In this document: positions 32,730 through 38,685 of the stretch, in pieces | Layout: each line of letters begins with the position of its first letter | Position numbering within the stretch: position 1 is the stretch's first letter | Assembly: GCF_000689395.1 (NCBI RefSeq) | Contig: NZ_HG966617.1 | Location: 1,954,677-2,018,676, forward strand | DNA: 64,000 bases | Direction of reading: 5' to 3' | Source: Candidatus Phaeomarinobacter ectocarpi | Lineage (GTDB): Bacteria > Pseudomonadota > Alphaproteobacteria > CGMCC-115125 | Notes under the pieces: model-generated | Told to the model about the DNA's origin: nothing | Databases searched by the model: none | What the model saw: only the letters and a program-made list of their open reading frames with translations | Made by a program: the position numbers and the translations under genes

Positions 32730-34874
32730 ATGTCCGCATCCCTTCCAAAGACAACGGCACACGTCGTCGCTGAAGAGTTCAATCGCGCCATCGACAGCCA
32801 CCAAAAAGGCAAGCTGGACCGCGCCAAACGCGGCTACAAACGCGTCCTTCAGTCCGCACCCAATCACGCCTCGGCAATACATCTGCTCGGTGTTCTGGAT
32901 CTACAGCGCGGCAACCCCGAGGCTGCAGCAGCGCTGATCGAAAAAGCCATTGGCATTGATCCAAACATGGCGGCCGCACATTACAATCTGGCGCGCTGCC
33001 GAAAATTGCTAGGTCAGCTGCAAGCCGCCCTAGCGTCTGCGGACCATTGTCTCAGCATTACACCCGATGATTTGGATGCCCTGCTTCTCAAGGGCAATGC
33101 ACTTAATGAACTTGAGCGCCCCGAAGAAGCCATTACAACATTTTCTGAGGTACTGGAGCTCAATCCGGACCTGTCCCCGGTTCGCGGTGCCCGCATCTGC
33201 TTGTACCTTGGCCAAGGCCGGACGAATGCAGCCGCTTTGGACATGGCGTACATCATCGAAAACACCGATGATCCGGTGTCTGTCTTGAATAGCGTCGCAG
33301 CGAAACTCCTGGATCAGGGCGACAATGAAAACGCCCTGAAGGTTCTGGAAAAGGCGACAGACACCGACCCATCCGACAAGCATACACTGTCGCTGATCGC
33401 GGGCGCACTTATTGACTTGGATCGCAATACAGACGCGCTCCCCATTGTAAAGCAGTTGCTGGATGACGACCCCGACGATGTGCTCGCCCAGTTGAAGATG
33501 GGGTTTTTGCTCGCCAACCTGAAACGTTTCAAAGATGCTCTTCCGATCCTCCAGGGTGTTCTCAAACACAGGCCTGAAGATTCAGCACTGCTGTTGAAGC
33601 TGGCCTACACGCACCAGTCGCTTGAGCAGTTCGACGAAGCAATCGCCTACTACGAGAAGCTCAAAATCCTCGAGCCCACCGAAGCACGAACCTGGTCAAA
33701 CCTGGTCGGCCTCTATGTCGGACTGGAAGACTACGAAAAAGCAATTGATGAAGGCATGGAGGCCCTGCGGATCAACCCGAATGTTGAGCAGAGCTATCTC
33801 AACCTGGCCGTCATGTTCCAGAGACTCGGCGATTTTGACAAGGCCGCCGACCTGTATCGTCGTGCCGTCGAGGTCAACCCGAACTACTCCACCGCCGGCT
33901 CTAACCTAGCCCATTTGCTTCTTGCGCACGGAAAAATCGAGGACGGCTGGGACCTGTATGCGCATGGATTTGCGGCCGGTCTGCGGCTCCCCCTGCGCCA
34001 GTTCAACACCGACCTTTGGCGCGGCGAAGACATTGCTGACCGCACGATACTCGCTTGGAAAGAACAGGGTATCGGTGACGACGTCCGCTTTGCATCATGC
34101 TACCCGGACCTGATCCAGCGCGCTGGCCATGTGATCATTGAGACAGATGCCCGCCTTGTCCCGCTGTACCAACGCTCATTCCCGCAGGCGTCCGTGCGCG
34201 CTCAACGCACTGATCCATCACTTGTGCCGGTCGGTCCACCCGACTTCAGCACCCATACGCCTGCCGGCCAGTTGCCAACTATTTTTAGACGATCTCTCGA
34301 TGCTTTTCCTGCGGAAGACGGATATCTGAAGCCAGATCCTGAACGCGTTGCCTATTGGCGCGAGAAAGTCGAAGCGGCCGGCGAAGGCATCCGGGTCGGT
34401 CTTGCATGGCGAAGCATGCACCAGAATGTCTCCAGAAACCGCACCTACACTGAGTTGGAGGACTGGGCGCGCCTGATTGCAACGCCGGGCATCACAGCAA
34501 TCAACCTGCAATACGATGATCCCAGTGATGAAGTGCGAGCGTTCGCCGAAAAAACCGGCCTGACGTTGCATATCATGGACGGTATCGACCTAAAGGATGA
34601 CCTCGACGACGCCGCCGCACTCAGCAAGGCATGTGATCTCGTCATAAGTGCGGGCACATCAGTAGCCGACATGGCCGCCGCAGTCGGCACGCCTGCAATG
34701 TTTTACGGCGAGAACCGACACCCCATGCAGCTGGGGACTGATCACTTCCCCTGGTACCCATCAGCACGATTTATCGGGATCGGACCAAAACAGCCGGTTT
34801 CGGAAATCGTCGATATCATTACCAGCGACGTGCAAGCTTTCGCGGCACGTTACCTCGACGGCGAATTCAAATAG
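32730..34874 (+). CDS. TPR protein with C-terminal glycosyltransferase-like domain, candidate flagellin glycosyltransferase (FlmG-like)
   Basis: This 714-residue cytoplasmic protein has an N-terminal array of about nine TPR-type repeats (residues about 10-400, e.g. AIHLLGVLDLQRGNPEAAAALIEKAIGIDPNMAAAHYNLARCRKLLGQL). A GT-B-like C-terminal region includes WKEQGIGDDVRFASCYPDL, GIRVGLAWRSMHQNVSRNR, and DLVISAGTSVADMAAAVGTPAMF. This domain order matches Caulobacter FlmG, where TPRs bind flagellin and the C-terminus adds a nonulosonic acid. It lies directly before two flagellin genes, which supports that role. The sugar donor and activity are not shown by sequence; no sugar-synthesis genes are in the window. 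Confidence 0.8.
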   Translation: MSASLPKTTAHVVAEEFNRAIDSHQKGKLDRAKRGYKRVLQSAPNHASAIHLLGVLDLQRGNPEAAAALIEKAIGIDPNMAAAHYNLARCRKLLGQLQAALASADHCLSITPDDLDALLLKGNALNELERPEEAITTFSEVLELNPDLSPVRGARICLYLGQGRTNAAALDMAYIIENTDDPVSVLNSVAAKLLDQGDNENALKVLEKATDTDPSDKHTLSLIAGALIDLDRNTDALPIVKQLLDDDPDDVLAQLKMGFLLANLKRFKDALPILQGVLKHRPEDSALLLKLAYTHQSLEQFDEAIAYYEKLKILEPTEARTWSNLVGLYVGLEDYEKAIDEGMEALRINPNVEQSYLNLAVMFQRLGDFDKAADLYRRAVEVNPNYSTAGSNLAHLLLAHGKIEDGWDLYAHGFAAGLRLPLRQFNTDLWRGEDIADRTILAWKEQGIGDDVRFASCYPDLIQRAGHVIIETDARLVPLYQRSFPQASVRAQRTDPSLVPVGPPDFSTHTPAGQLPTIFRRSLDAFPAEDGYLKPDPERVAYWREKVEAAGEGIRVGLAWRSMHQNVSRNRTYTELEDWARLIATPGITAINLQYDDPSDEVRAFAEKTGLTLHIMDGIDLKDDLDDAAALSKACDLVISAGTSVADMAAAVGTPAMFYGENRHPMQLGTDHFPWYPSARFIGIGPKQPVSEIVDIITSDVQAFAARYLDGEFK

Positions 34875-35024: not shown

Positions 35025-35040
35025 TGGCACGGCTTGTGCT
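35025..35040 (+). promoter_or_regulatory. Sigma-54 promoter of flagellin 1
   Basis: TGGCACG-GCTT-GTGCT has a perfect -24 element and GG/GC spacing of 10 nt, with GTGC at -12. It lies 207 bp upstream of the flagellin ATG. Confidence 0.7.
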
Positions 35041-35246: not shown

Positions 35247-36386
35247 ATGGGTGACATAGTACTTTCCGCAGGTATCCGCTCAAACCTTTTGAGCATTCAG
35301 AATACCGCCAAACTTCTGGATCAGACGCAAACACGTCTGGCGACGGGCCTTAAGGTCAACGGTGCCATTGATGACCCGACCGCGTTCTTTACGGCGCAGG
35401 GCCTAAACAACCGCGCACGTGATCTGGAGTCCCTGCTCTCTTCCATGGACCAGGCCATTCAGACACTTGATGCTGCGGACCAGGGCATCCAGTCCGTCAT
35501 CAAGCTGATTGAGAATGCCAAAGCCACCGCCAACCAAGCGTTGGAAACAAAGGTGAAGGCATCCGCGGCTACCAGCACAAATTCGACAGCTTTTGTTGCA
35601 ACAACGGCAGTCAGCACGGTCACCGGCATTGATGCCGGCGACATCTTCACTATTCAGGTCGGAACCGCAGCCGCTATCGCCGTGACTGTCGGAGCCAGCA
35701 CCTCACACGTTTCAGCTCTGGTTGCCACCATCACCGGTTTGACCGGTGTGACCGCCTCCCTCACCTCAGAAGGCAAGATCAAGATCGAGGGTGACAACGG
35801 CGAAGATCTGACAATCACCGACACCACAGGATCTGCAGCAAACACACTGGGCGTAACAGGTACGGCCACGAACGGCACAAACCGGCGTACATTTGAAAGT
35901 GATTTCAACTCGTTGCGTGTGCAGATGGACCAGTTGGTCGGAGACGCTTCTTATAAGGGCGTGAATCTGTTGCAGGCCAACAATGACCTGACCGTATTCT
36001 TTAACGAAGGTCAGACATCGAGCCTTACAATCACCTCGAGACTCATGGATACGTCTTCTGGTGGTCTCAACATCTCTGAGATCATAGCAAAGGCTTGGAC
36101 GACAGATGGCAGTATCAATTCAGCCATTGACCAGCTCGATCAGGCCGTCAACACGCTGCGTCAGCAGGCCTCTACTTTCGGCGGCAACCTGTCAGTGGTC
36201 GAAACGCGCTCTGACTTCACAGAGAACATGATCAATACGTTGGTAGGCGGTGCGTCCAACCTCACTGTTGCCGATACCAATGAAGAAGGTGCAAATCTTC
36301 TGGCACTGCAGACCCGTCAGTCCCTGGGCACAACCGCCCTGTCGCTGGCATCACAGGCCGACCAGAACGTGTTGCAGCTCTTCTAA
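35247..36386 (+). CDS. Flagellin 1
   Basis: The 379-residue filament subunit has the D0/D1 helices at both ends (MGDIVLSAGIRSNLLSIQNTA and GANLLALQTRQSLGTTALSLASQADQNVLQLF). A Thr/Ser-rich central insert at about residues 105-212 resembles the Flagellin_IN motif (SALVATITGLTGVTASLTSEGKIKIEGDNGEDLTI). The insert is a likely surface domain. The gene is preceded by a sigma-54 promoter and two enhancer dyads and followed by a strong terminator. Its neighbour at 36608 is a same-length paralogue. FlbT and FlaF genes are downstream. Confidence 0.95.
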   Translation: MGDIVLSAGIRSNLLSIQNTAKLLDQTQTRLATGLKVNGAIDDPTAFFTAQGLNNRARDLESLLSSMDQAIQTLDAADQGIQSVIKLIENAKATANQALETKVKASAATSTNSTAFVATTAVSTVTGIDAGDIFTIQVGTAAAIAVTVGASTSHVSALVATITGLTGVTASLTSEGKIKIEGDNGEDLTITDTTGSAANTLGVTGTATNGTNRRTFESDFNSLRVQMDQLVGDASYKGVNLLQANNDLTVFFNEGQTSSLTITSRLMDTSSGGLNISEIIAKAWTTDGSINSAIDQLDQAVNTLRQQASTFGGNLSVVETRSDFTENMINTLVGGASNLTVADTNEEGANLLALQTRQSLGTTALSLASQADQNVLQLF

Positions 36387-36408
36387 AAGCGACACGGCAA
36401 AAATATTC

Positions 36409-36446
36409 AAGGGCGGTTGCATTTTTTGCAACCGCCCTTTTTGTTT
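36409..36446 (+). terminator. Intrinsic terminator after flagellin 1
   Basis: A 13-bp perfect stem (AAGGGCGGTTGCA / TGCAACCGCCCTT) with a T5 loop is followed by a TTTTTG run. It separates the two flagellin genes into independent units. Confidence 0.9.
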
Positions 36447-36607
36447 GATTTCTGGGGTTTCTGCCCTGCTTTGGGCACTGGCGCCGCGAAGCACCGCGTG
36501 CCTGTACGATTGCAGTAACTCCCCTTTAAGACCTTTCCGCCAGCATGACCATCGACACCTCAGAAAGAGGGTCTGATTAGTTATTTTCCTAGGAAAGGAA
36601 CATCCAC

Positions 36608-37747
36608 ATGGGTGACATCGTCCTCTCGAGTGCACTGCGCTCCAACCTTACTTCTCTTCAGAACACAGCATCGCTTCTGTCTCAGACTCAGGAACGTCTT
36701 TCGACTGGCCTGAAAGTGAACAGCGCGATCGACAACCCAACTGCATTCTTCACAGCTGCCGGCCTGAACAACCGTGCAAATGACCTGTCAGCTCTGTCTG
36801 ACAACATCGGTCAGGCTGTGGATACGCTTAAGGCTGCCGACGATGGTATCCAGGCTATTACGAGCCTCGTGGAAAACCTGAAGTCTACAGCTAGCACGGC
36901 CCTCACTACGAAGGTTGCTGCGTCAAGTGCTACCAGCACGAACTCAACTGCATATGTTGCCACAACTGCTGTCAGCACCATCACTGGTGTCGATGCCGGT
37001 GATATCTTCACTGTTCAGGTTGGTACAGCCACTGCTGTTGCCGTCACTGTTGGTGCAAGTACGTCACATGTGTCTGCACTTGTTGCGACCGTCAATGGTC
37101 TGACTGGCGTTTCAGCGTCTTTGACGTCTGAAGGCAAGATCAAGATCGAAGGCGACAGCGGCGAAAACCTGGTGATCACTGACACAACAGGTTCTACTGC
37201 AGCTACTCTTGGTGTTTCCGGTACAGCCAGCAACGGTACAAACCGCAATCAGGCTGTGTCTGACTTCAACACCCTGCGTACACAGATTGACCAGTTGGCA
37301 TCTGACTCGTCCTTCAAGGGTGTTAACCTGCTCCAGGCCAGCAATGACCTGACGGTTAACTTCAACGAAGACCAGTCTTCAAGCCTGACGATTGCGTCCA
37401 AGCTCCTGGACACATCTGCATCAGGCCTGAACGTCTCTGCTGCTACCAACTCTGACTTTGCTACAGACAGCAATATCGAGGCGGCTCTTACGTCTCTCGA
37501 CGCAGCTGTGTCTACGCTTCGTCAGCAGGCTGCCAGCTTTGGTAACAACCTCTCCATCGTGGAAAACCGTCAGGACTTCACTTCGAACCTGATCAACACG
37601 CTGGAAACAGGCGCCGGCAAGCTCACGCTCGCTGACACCAACGTTGAAGGTGCAAACCTGCTTGCTCTGCAGACACGTCAGTCCCTGGGTACCACGACCC
37701 TGTCACTGGCTTCTCAGTCCGACCAGAACGTCCTGCGTCTGTTCTAA
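36608..37747 (+). CDS. Flagellin 2
   Basis: This 379-residue paralogue of flagellin 1 has identical layout: D0/D1 ends (MGDIVLSSALRSNLTSLQNTA; GANLLALQTRQSLGTTTLSLASQSDQNVLRLF) and the same central insert at about residues 105-212. Its codons are visibly richer in T at third positions (GGT, GCT, CTT, TCT) than the neighbouring genes, which can reflect very high expression. AGGAAAGGAA precedes the ATG. No sigma-54 promoter like that of flagellin 1 is seen; the closest, TGCCTGT-ACGA-TTGCA near 36499-36514, lacks the -24 GG. It probably is the main or differently timed filament subunit. Confidence 0.95.
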   Translation: MGDIVLSSALRSNLTSLQNTASLLSQTQERLSTGLKVNSAIDNPTAFFTAAGLNNRANDLSALSDNIGQAVDTLKAADDGIQAITSLVENLKSTASTALTTKVAASSATSTNSTAYVATTAVSTITGVDAGDIFTVQVGTATAVAVTVGASTSHVSALVATVNGLTGVSASLTSEGKIKIEGDSGENLVITDTTGSTAATLGVSGTASNGTNRNQAVSDFNTLRTQIDQLASDSSFKGVNLLQASNDLTVNFNEDQSSSLTIASKLLDTSASGLNVSAATNSDFATDSNIEAALTSLDAAVSTLRQQAASFGNNLSIVENRQDFTSNLINTLETGAGKLTLADTNVEGANLLALQTRQSLGTTTLSLASQSDQNVLRLF

Positions 37748-37940: not shown

Positions 37941-38354
37941 ATGGCCCTCAAGATCGAGCTAAAGCCCGGCGAACGCTTCATTCTGGGCAATGCCGTCATC
38001 ACGAATGATGATCAGCGCACCAGGCTGTTTGTCGAAGGATCCGCACCCATTCTGCGTGAGAAGGACATCATGCGTCCCGAAGACGCTGACTCGCCATGCA
38101 AGAATCTCTACCTGGCCGTTCAGCTCATGTATCTGAGCAACGACCCCTCAGAACAGCACAGCGTCTATTTCAAGCTCACCAACGACATAATCAAGGCGGC
38201 CCCCAGTACGCTCGAGTACATTGAGCGCATGAACAATCAAATCTTAACCGGCGCATTCTATAAAGCTCTGAAGGAAGCAAAGAAGCTCATCAAGTATGAG
38301 CAGGAGCTCATGTCGAATGCACAATCCGACGCAGGCATACGGGAAGACAGCTAA
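37941..38354 (+). CDS. flbT: Flagellin translation regulator FlbT
   Basis: The 137-residue protein begins MALKIELKPGERFILGNAVITND and has FLVEG-type and ADSPCKNLYLAVQLMYLS blocks of FlbT. In Caulobacter FlbT binds the flagellin mRNA leader and limits its translation and stability until the hook is done. The gene overlaps flaF by 38 bp. GGAGAG precedes the ATG. It is directly downstream of the flagellins. Confidence 0.93.
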   Translation: MALKIELKPGERFILGNAVITNDDQRTRLFVEGSAPILREKDIMRPEDADSPCKNLYLAVQLMYLSNDPSEQHSVYFKLTNDIIKAAPSTLEYIERMNNQILTGAFYKALKEAKKLIKYEQELMSNAQSDAGIREDS

Positions 38355-38685
38355 GGTTGTTGCCAACCCGCGTGAACACGAAGCCAATCTGCTCACCAAG
38401 GCTGCCCAGCAGCTTTCGGCCGTCAAAGACCCGTTTGAGCCGCGCAGCGATAAGTTCCGCGACGCACTGATTTACAATCGCAAGCTCTGGACCGTCTTTG
38501 CAGGCTCGGTGACAGGCGACGACAATCCCCTTCCCGATCAGATCAAGCAGAACATTGCCAATCTGGGTATCTTCATTCTCAAGCACACCGTTTCCGTCCA
38601 GGCGAGCCCCTCGCCGGAGAAGCTTGATGTGCTGATCAGCATCAATCGCGAAATTGCCGCGGGCCTCTATCAGCGTCCCGCGTAA
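38317..38685 (+). CDS. flaF: Flagellin regulator FlaF
   Basis: The 122-residue protein matches FlaF (AYGKTAKVVANPREHEANLLTKAAQQL; RKLWTVFAGSVTGDDNPLPDQIKQNIANLGIFI). FlaF promotes flagellin translation or secretion and works opposite FlbT. The start at MHNPTQAYGK is supported by AGGAGC 9 nt upstream; it lies inside the flbT end, so the two are coupled. Confidence 0.92.
   Translation: MHNPTQAYGKTAKVVANPREHEANLLTKAAQQLSAVKDPFEPRSDKFRDALIYNRKLWTVFAGSVTGDDNPLPDQIKQNIANLGIFILKHTVSVQASPSPEKLDVLISINREIAAGLYQRPA

Follow-up and report, generated by a model that had tools for sequence, protein, structure and literature searches.

Two tandem flagellin genes of the alphaproteobacterium Candidatus Phaeomarinobacter ectocarpi encode proteins whose ends and centre follow different trees. 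Three genomes of the genus have central inserts that group by genome joined to ends that group by orthologue, the edges of the insert tract lie at the edges of a domain, and conversion tracts are present in relatives. We think it probable that these genes are old paralogues (A-type and B-type) whose outer domains underwent recurrent, domain-limited gene conversion, later restrained by purifying selection, while their ends stayed paralogue-specific. Homogenisation of A and B must have recurred within the genus, because one copying event in the ancestor would have produced a tree of the orthologue type.

The gene pair and its surroundings

The window is a stretch of 64,000 nt from contig NZ_HG966617.1, and its relevant features are listed in Table 1. 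Both flagellins score above the curated cut-offs for Flagellin_N (PF00669) and Flagellin_C (PF00700), and they align without gaps over 379 codons each. The ends of the A gene cluster with the A-type flagellins of relatives, those of the B gene with the B-type. A search at order and family level around the window genome (G000, genes A0/B0) covered four genomes, one of them without a detected flagellin; the congeners G003 (A3/B3) and G001 (A1/B1) carry the same tandem pair.

Table 1. Features of the flagellin locus, in positions of the window
Feature	Position	Strand	Basis
TPR protein, FlmG-like architecture, immediately 5′ of the flagellin pair	32730..34874	+	TPR families clear; C-terminal part Glyco_transf_9 E=0.08, below cut-off
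Sigma-54-like promoter (predicted), 5′ of A gene	35025..35039	+	TGGCAC and TGC kept in G000, G003 and G001
Flagellin A-type, upstream copy, 379 aa	35247..36386	+	Pfam Flagellin_N 2.5e-12, Flagellin_C 2.3e-9
A outer (D2-type) domain, residues 105-212, genome-grouping tract	35559..35882	+	Informative columns; fold resembles the D2 of FliD and of V. cholerae flagellin
Terminator-like hairpin and T-run between A and B genes	36411..36440	+	Hairpin kept in all three genus genomes
Flagellin B-type, downstream copy, 379 aa	36608..37747	+	Pfam Flagellin_N 1.6e-11, Flagellin_C 4.9e-7
B outer (D2-type) domain, residues 105-212, matching tract of second gene	36920..37243	+	Informative columns; insert-only model
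FlbT, flagellin regulator	37941..38354	+	PF07378 2.6e-43; NF009432 above cut-off
FlaF, flagellin regulator/chaperone	38296..38685	+	PF07309 4.5e-33; NF009435 above cut-off

Upstream of the A gene lies TGGCACGGCTTGTGC, which from its consensus we take to be a sigma-54-like promoter. In the intergenic region (36387-36607) the hairpin is followed by a conserved leader belonging to the B gene and unlike that of the A gene. Given this promoter, the hairpin and the distinct B leader, the two genes are probably controlled separately. Fourfold codons end mostly in C in the A gene and mostly in T in the B gene of G000, and likewise in G003, where the A gene is less strongly biased; this contrast is absent in G001.

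Divergence between the two window proteins

The A and B proteins differ at 35 of 104 positions over residues 1-104 (33.7%), at 17 of 108 over the insert, residues 105-212 (15.7%), and at 55 of 167 over residues 213-379 (32.9%). Comparison of the insert with the remainder gives a Fisher p of 6e-4. The C-terminal part is uneven (50% different over residues 261-310, 22% over 311-379). The initial annotation had put the differences at roughly 17 in the insert and 35 in the first 104 residues, and both counts prove exact.

Silent sites are near saturation throughout, pS being 0.75 in the N part, 0.68 in the insert and 0.68 in the C part; the corresponding dN values are 0.33, 0.10 and 0.27. In the insert, amino-acid change is restrained compared with silent change, at a dN/dS of ~0.06 against 0.15 in the C part (in the N part the ratio is undefined because dS is saturated). 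Silent divergence of the insert is not reduced relative to the rest of the pair (62/91 versus 146/205, p = 0.58), and no fresh low-divergence DNA tract was seen in the window pair, which makes fresh gene conversion there unlikely, in agreement with the earlier view of this pair.

Two trees in one protein

The ends track orthologues. N-termini differ by 3.8% between A0 and A3 and by 13.5% between B0 and B3, compared with 34-38% between A and B within a genome. The inserts track genomes, with A and B differing by 15.7, 21.3 and 30.8% within the three genomes and any between-genome pair by 36-50%. Inserts of A0-A3 and B0-B3 are 37% and 38% different, their N-termini 4% and 13%; over all A-A and B-B pairs between species the inserts differ by 36-46% and the N-termini by 4-25%, so orthologues show the usual flagellin pattern. 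A reversal of that pattern had been claimed from the window alone, which holds between copies within one genome and fails between orthologues. The accompanying proposal, that the insert is a constrained, conserved surface rather than a product of gene exchange, is contradicted by the free variation of orthologous inserts.

Among informative amino-acid columns of the G000/G003 quartet, the insert has 20 of the genome type and one of the orthologue type, and the ends have two and 54, respectively (insert versus ends, p = 3e-15). The orthologue tree fails maximum-likelihood tests for the insert (dlnL 89 with amino acids, 112 with codons), as does the genome tree for the ends (dlnL 125 and 151; range 125-217 across amino-acid and codon models). 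Orthologue-type columns run from 8 to 104, are then missing save for column 184, and are found again from 214, so that the switch points of the grouping (~105 and ~213) coincide with the edges of the outer domain. Paralogues closer to each other than to orthologues, the mark of concerted evolution, are found for the insert in all three genus genomes, and not for the ends.

Structure and identity of the insert

The full-length AlphaFold model (pLDDT 75) has long helices at 44-100 and 287-378 and a shorter one at 214-233; its D0/D1 core, model residues 38-342, matches Caulobacter FljL/FljK (Z ~19, rmsd 2.4). Modelled by itself (pLDDT 85, pTM 0.81), the insert is a small beta-alpha-beta domain that resembles FliD D2 (Z 10.9) and the D2 of V. 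cholerae flagellin (Z 9.1-9.9), and its profile, compared with sequences of solved structures, matches the flagellins 6b5b (3.6e-6) and 9p7r (1.3e-4). From these fold and profile matches the insert is identified as a predicted outer domain of the FliD-D2/Flagellin_IN type that follows the first D1 helix. Flagellin_IN (PF07196) itself, the family named for the insert in the initial annotation, gives no match to the window inserts at E<=1 and matches 4 of 23 aligned insert homologues (best 3.8e-6). The insertion site, at about residue 104, is near that of FliD D2 (from 103); the D2 of V. cholerae flagellin occupies 171-278. The same matches, together with general flagellin architecture, suggest that the insert, of which 32-34% is Ser plus Thr, would be exposed on the filament surface.

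Relatives outside the genus

The tree places the A/B duplication before the split of the window genus from its sister family. Every one of the 31 A/B pairs in that family (26 genomes) has an insert more divergent than both ends, so homogenisation across the deep A and B types is special to the window genus in this sample, and matching outer domains are no general requirement. In all five recent B/B pairs (in G145, G243, G388, G389 and G390) both ends are more divergent than the insert. Both counts exclude a few pairs in which distance assigns the two members to one type (G393, G395, G412 and G413). One of these, the tandem pair L103 of G412, has an insert 31% different, below both ends (C-terminus 49%), and is possibly a further case of insert copying.

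Direct DNA-level conversion of the outer-domain region is seen in the recent B1/B2 duplicates of relatives. In G389 the insert pS is 0.023 and those of the ends 0.278 and 0.345; divergence is low over residues ~87-246, with an identical run of 255 nt. Insert pS is likewise low in G243 (0.28, versus 0.61 and 0.58 at the ends) and, more weakly, NORP32, apparently the same genome as G388, shows the same reduction. The B1/B2 inserts of G145 differ at one of 103 residues and at ~32 silent sites (p = 5.7e-4 against the ends), and when all inserts of G145 and G390 are compared, whether orthologous or paralogous, 0-2 of 103 residues differ with a pS of 0.25-0.38. Between the B genes of NORP32/G388 and G145, insert divergence is very high.

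We compared Dn/Ds within and between genomes in a manner resembling the MK test. In the window pair the insert odds were 0.37 (p = 1e-3) and those of its N and C ends 3.9 and 2.0; insert odds were 0.02 (p = 6e-10) for G145, 0.56 (p = 0.06) for the G003 pair and 1.10, no effect, for the G001 pair, and the ends were high or neutral. All these values are indicative only, since paralogue differences were treated as polymorphism, silent saturation biases the ratios and several contrasts were tried. From the low odds and the nearly invariant inserts of G145 and G390, the insert appears tightly held for periods, yet it is strongly different between other lineages.

The opposite pattern occurs in G174, where four scattered flagellins (L079-L082) have near-identical ends and inserts 44-79% different, which suggests a repertoire of surface variants; insert homogenisation is thus not universal. 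Loci of Roseibium, Labrenzia and Pseudovibrio (L012-L015, L017, L026 and L034-L038) were tried as insert pairs and rejected, being without a domain at residues 105-212; they bear a different, later insertion, and their insert figures were discarded. In several tandem flagellin pairs of Roseibium and Pseudovibrio with the later insertion, silent divergence is low outside the N-terminus.

DNA exchange in the window pair

Serine codons, which fall into two classes (TCN and AGY), agree in class at all 10 insert positions compared between A0 and B0, whereas A0-A1 gives three the same and four different, and A0-B1 two and five. This agreement hints at shared DNA ancestry of the A0 and B0 inserts. 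Compared with the ends, the insert has silent columns that lean towards genome grouping (7:2 versus 3:24, p = 4e-4; in other comparisons 6:3 versus 7:19, p = 0.05, and 6:0 versus 9:17, p = 0.006). A six-sequence likelihood test on silent sites of the insert was uninformative, leaning slightly to the orthologue tree (dlnL 1.1). Silent divergence of the insert is not lower between paralogues than between orthologues, although conversion after the species split should lower it; saturation may account for this, as may the differing codon regimes of the C-ending A and T-ending B genes, which may have re-saturated these sites. Given the saturation of its silent sites, the window pair's own exchange would be old, and we infer it mainly from the amino-acid and Ser-codon patterns. 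A DNA process, rather than parallel amino-acid change, would then have homogenised the inserts of the window pair.

Proposed history

In the history that we favour, the D0/D1 ends of old A-type and B-type paralogues evolve apart and stay paralogue-specific. More than once, the outer domain of one copy (~105-213) would have been overwritten from the other through homologous recombination of the two adjacent genes. After each copying, silent sites would drift while amino-acid change was held down. Selection would favour matching outer domains if the two flagellins are assembled into one filament and share its surface, and the ends would retain different roles in assembly or expression.

Alternative explanations

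A foreign outer-domain cassette might have been imported into one copy and then spread to the other, making the between-species difference one of replacement rather than gradual change. This would add to the favoured history rather than fully replace it. The G000-G003 insert divergence (37%) is nearly that to G001 (45%), while the A-gene N-terminus differs by 3.8 versus 19%; the best insert tree sets G000 outside G003 plus G001; and the very high insert divergence between NORP32/G388 and the G145 B genes is of the same kind. The species tree is nevertheless not rejected for the insert (p-AU 0.24), and a scan of 385 genomes of the class yielded no closer donor from outside, so import was set aside; we regard it as unlikely.

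Selection for matching surfaces could also drive the same substitutions independently in both inserts, with DNA exchange playing no part. Grouping of amino acids by genome, alongside saturated silent sites, would fit such co-evolution, as would the MK-like insert odds of the window pair and G145, opposite to those of the window-pair ends. The 10:0 agreement of Ser codon classes within the genome and the quartet counts at silent sites point instead to shared DNA ancestry, and conversion at the DNA level is seen in relatives. We consider independent matching distinctly improbable.

Still less probable is the view of the initial annotation, in which protein-level constraint keeps a functional surface conserved and no DNA is exchanged. 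It draws on an insert with saturated silent sites and only 15.7% amino-acid difference, and on the G145 B1/B2 inserts, nearly identical as proteins despite their silent differences. The divergence of orthologous inserts across the genus, far above that of the N-termini, and the maximum-likelihood trees lead us to reject this reading, and it has to face the Ser codon classes common to A and B within a genome and the direct conversion tracts in relatives. Its rescue needs parallel change at ~20 amino-acid columns per lineage, with silent sites on the orthologue tree.

An acquisition of the B insert from A in the genus ancestor, with normal divergence since, might be suggested by the clustering of genus A and B inserts in the insert tree but is scarcely credible, since B-type genes of the sister family have an insert at the same site and the orthologue-type tree that one ancestral copying would leave within the genus is rejected.

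Meaning of the pattern

The likeliest reason for matching would be a single filament built from both flagellins, with outer domains that must give a uniform surface. A common glycosylation surface is possible: the neighbouring TPR gene resembles Caulobacter FlmG in having a weakly glycosyltransferase-like C-terminus, and FlmG combines an N-terminal TPR part with a C-terminal GT-B glycosyltransferase (PMC7591256); the insert is rich in Ser and Thr; and a NeuB-type sugar synthase gene lies ~11 kb past the window end, which is circumstantial for flagellin glycosylation. Alternatively, matching might serve escape from flagellum-binding phages, an evasion proposed for Campylobacter in the consulted text of PMC5126078.

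More tentatively, and with the odds against it, one may suppose a general rule that co-assembled outer domains have to be near-identical to pack as one lattice and are copied and then frozen, while inner domains are kept apart by their assembly roles. If so, the halves of one protein would follow different trees for a structural reason, and the pair would offer a test of why many bacteria retain several flagellins. The locus is a clean natural case of two protein halves on different trees with switch points at domain edges, and it sets what would have to match when flagellins co-assemble (the outer surface) apart from what would have to differ (the core). A further lesson is cautionary: when paralogues of one genome are compared, the apparent conservation of a domain may come out inverted.

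Comparison with known systems

Among alphaproteobacteria, Caulobacter FljK/L/M/N give the best D0/D1 sequence match to the window pair and are among the best fold matches; unlike the window proteins, they are 270-273 aa long and without the outer domain. The Sinorhizobium meliloti FlaA/FlaB filament (PDB 7SN9), in which outer domains dimerise and FlaA and FlaB are probably mixed (PMC8931119), is built of alphaproteobacterial flagellin with a single D2 and offers a working model for why outer domains match. The overall fold match to 7SN9 is driven by D0/D1, and that work contains no analysis of exchange. Its D2 is not among the matches listed for the insert-only model, an absence that is no sign of a different fold. 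In P. aeruginosa, outer-domain contacts are required for motility (PMC10256154).

Alteromonadales fla is listed under concerted evolution in PMC6053082 and, as in the window genus, its paralogues within a genome are closer than orthologues, recurrently over long times; in the searched text of the survey, fla appears as an entire gene, with nothing domain-limited. The closest parallel in the sources consulted is flaA/flaB of Campylobacter jejuni, for which intragenomic recombination and concerted evolution are described (Meinersmann & Hiett 2000, cited in PMC5126078). According to the consulted text of PMC5126078, these two genes differ mainly in their terminal regions and are nearly identical in the central, surface-exposed one. 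Tandem flagellin genes and exchange within the genome are common to both systems, and one Campylobacter gene is under sigma-54 control; however, the Campylobacter copies are 95% identical overall, whereas the ends of the window pair are one third different, its paralogy is older than the family and its exchanged tract stops at the outer-domain edges. Concerted evolution of flagellins is already known; new here are the sharp limit to one domain and the much older paralogy.
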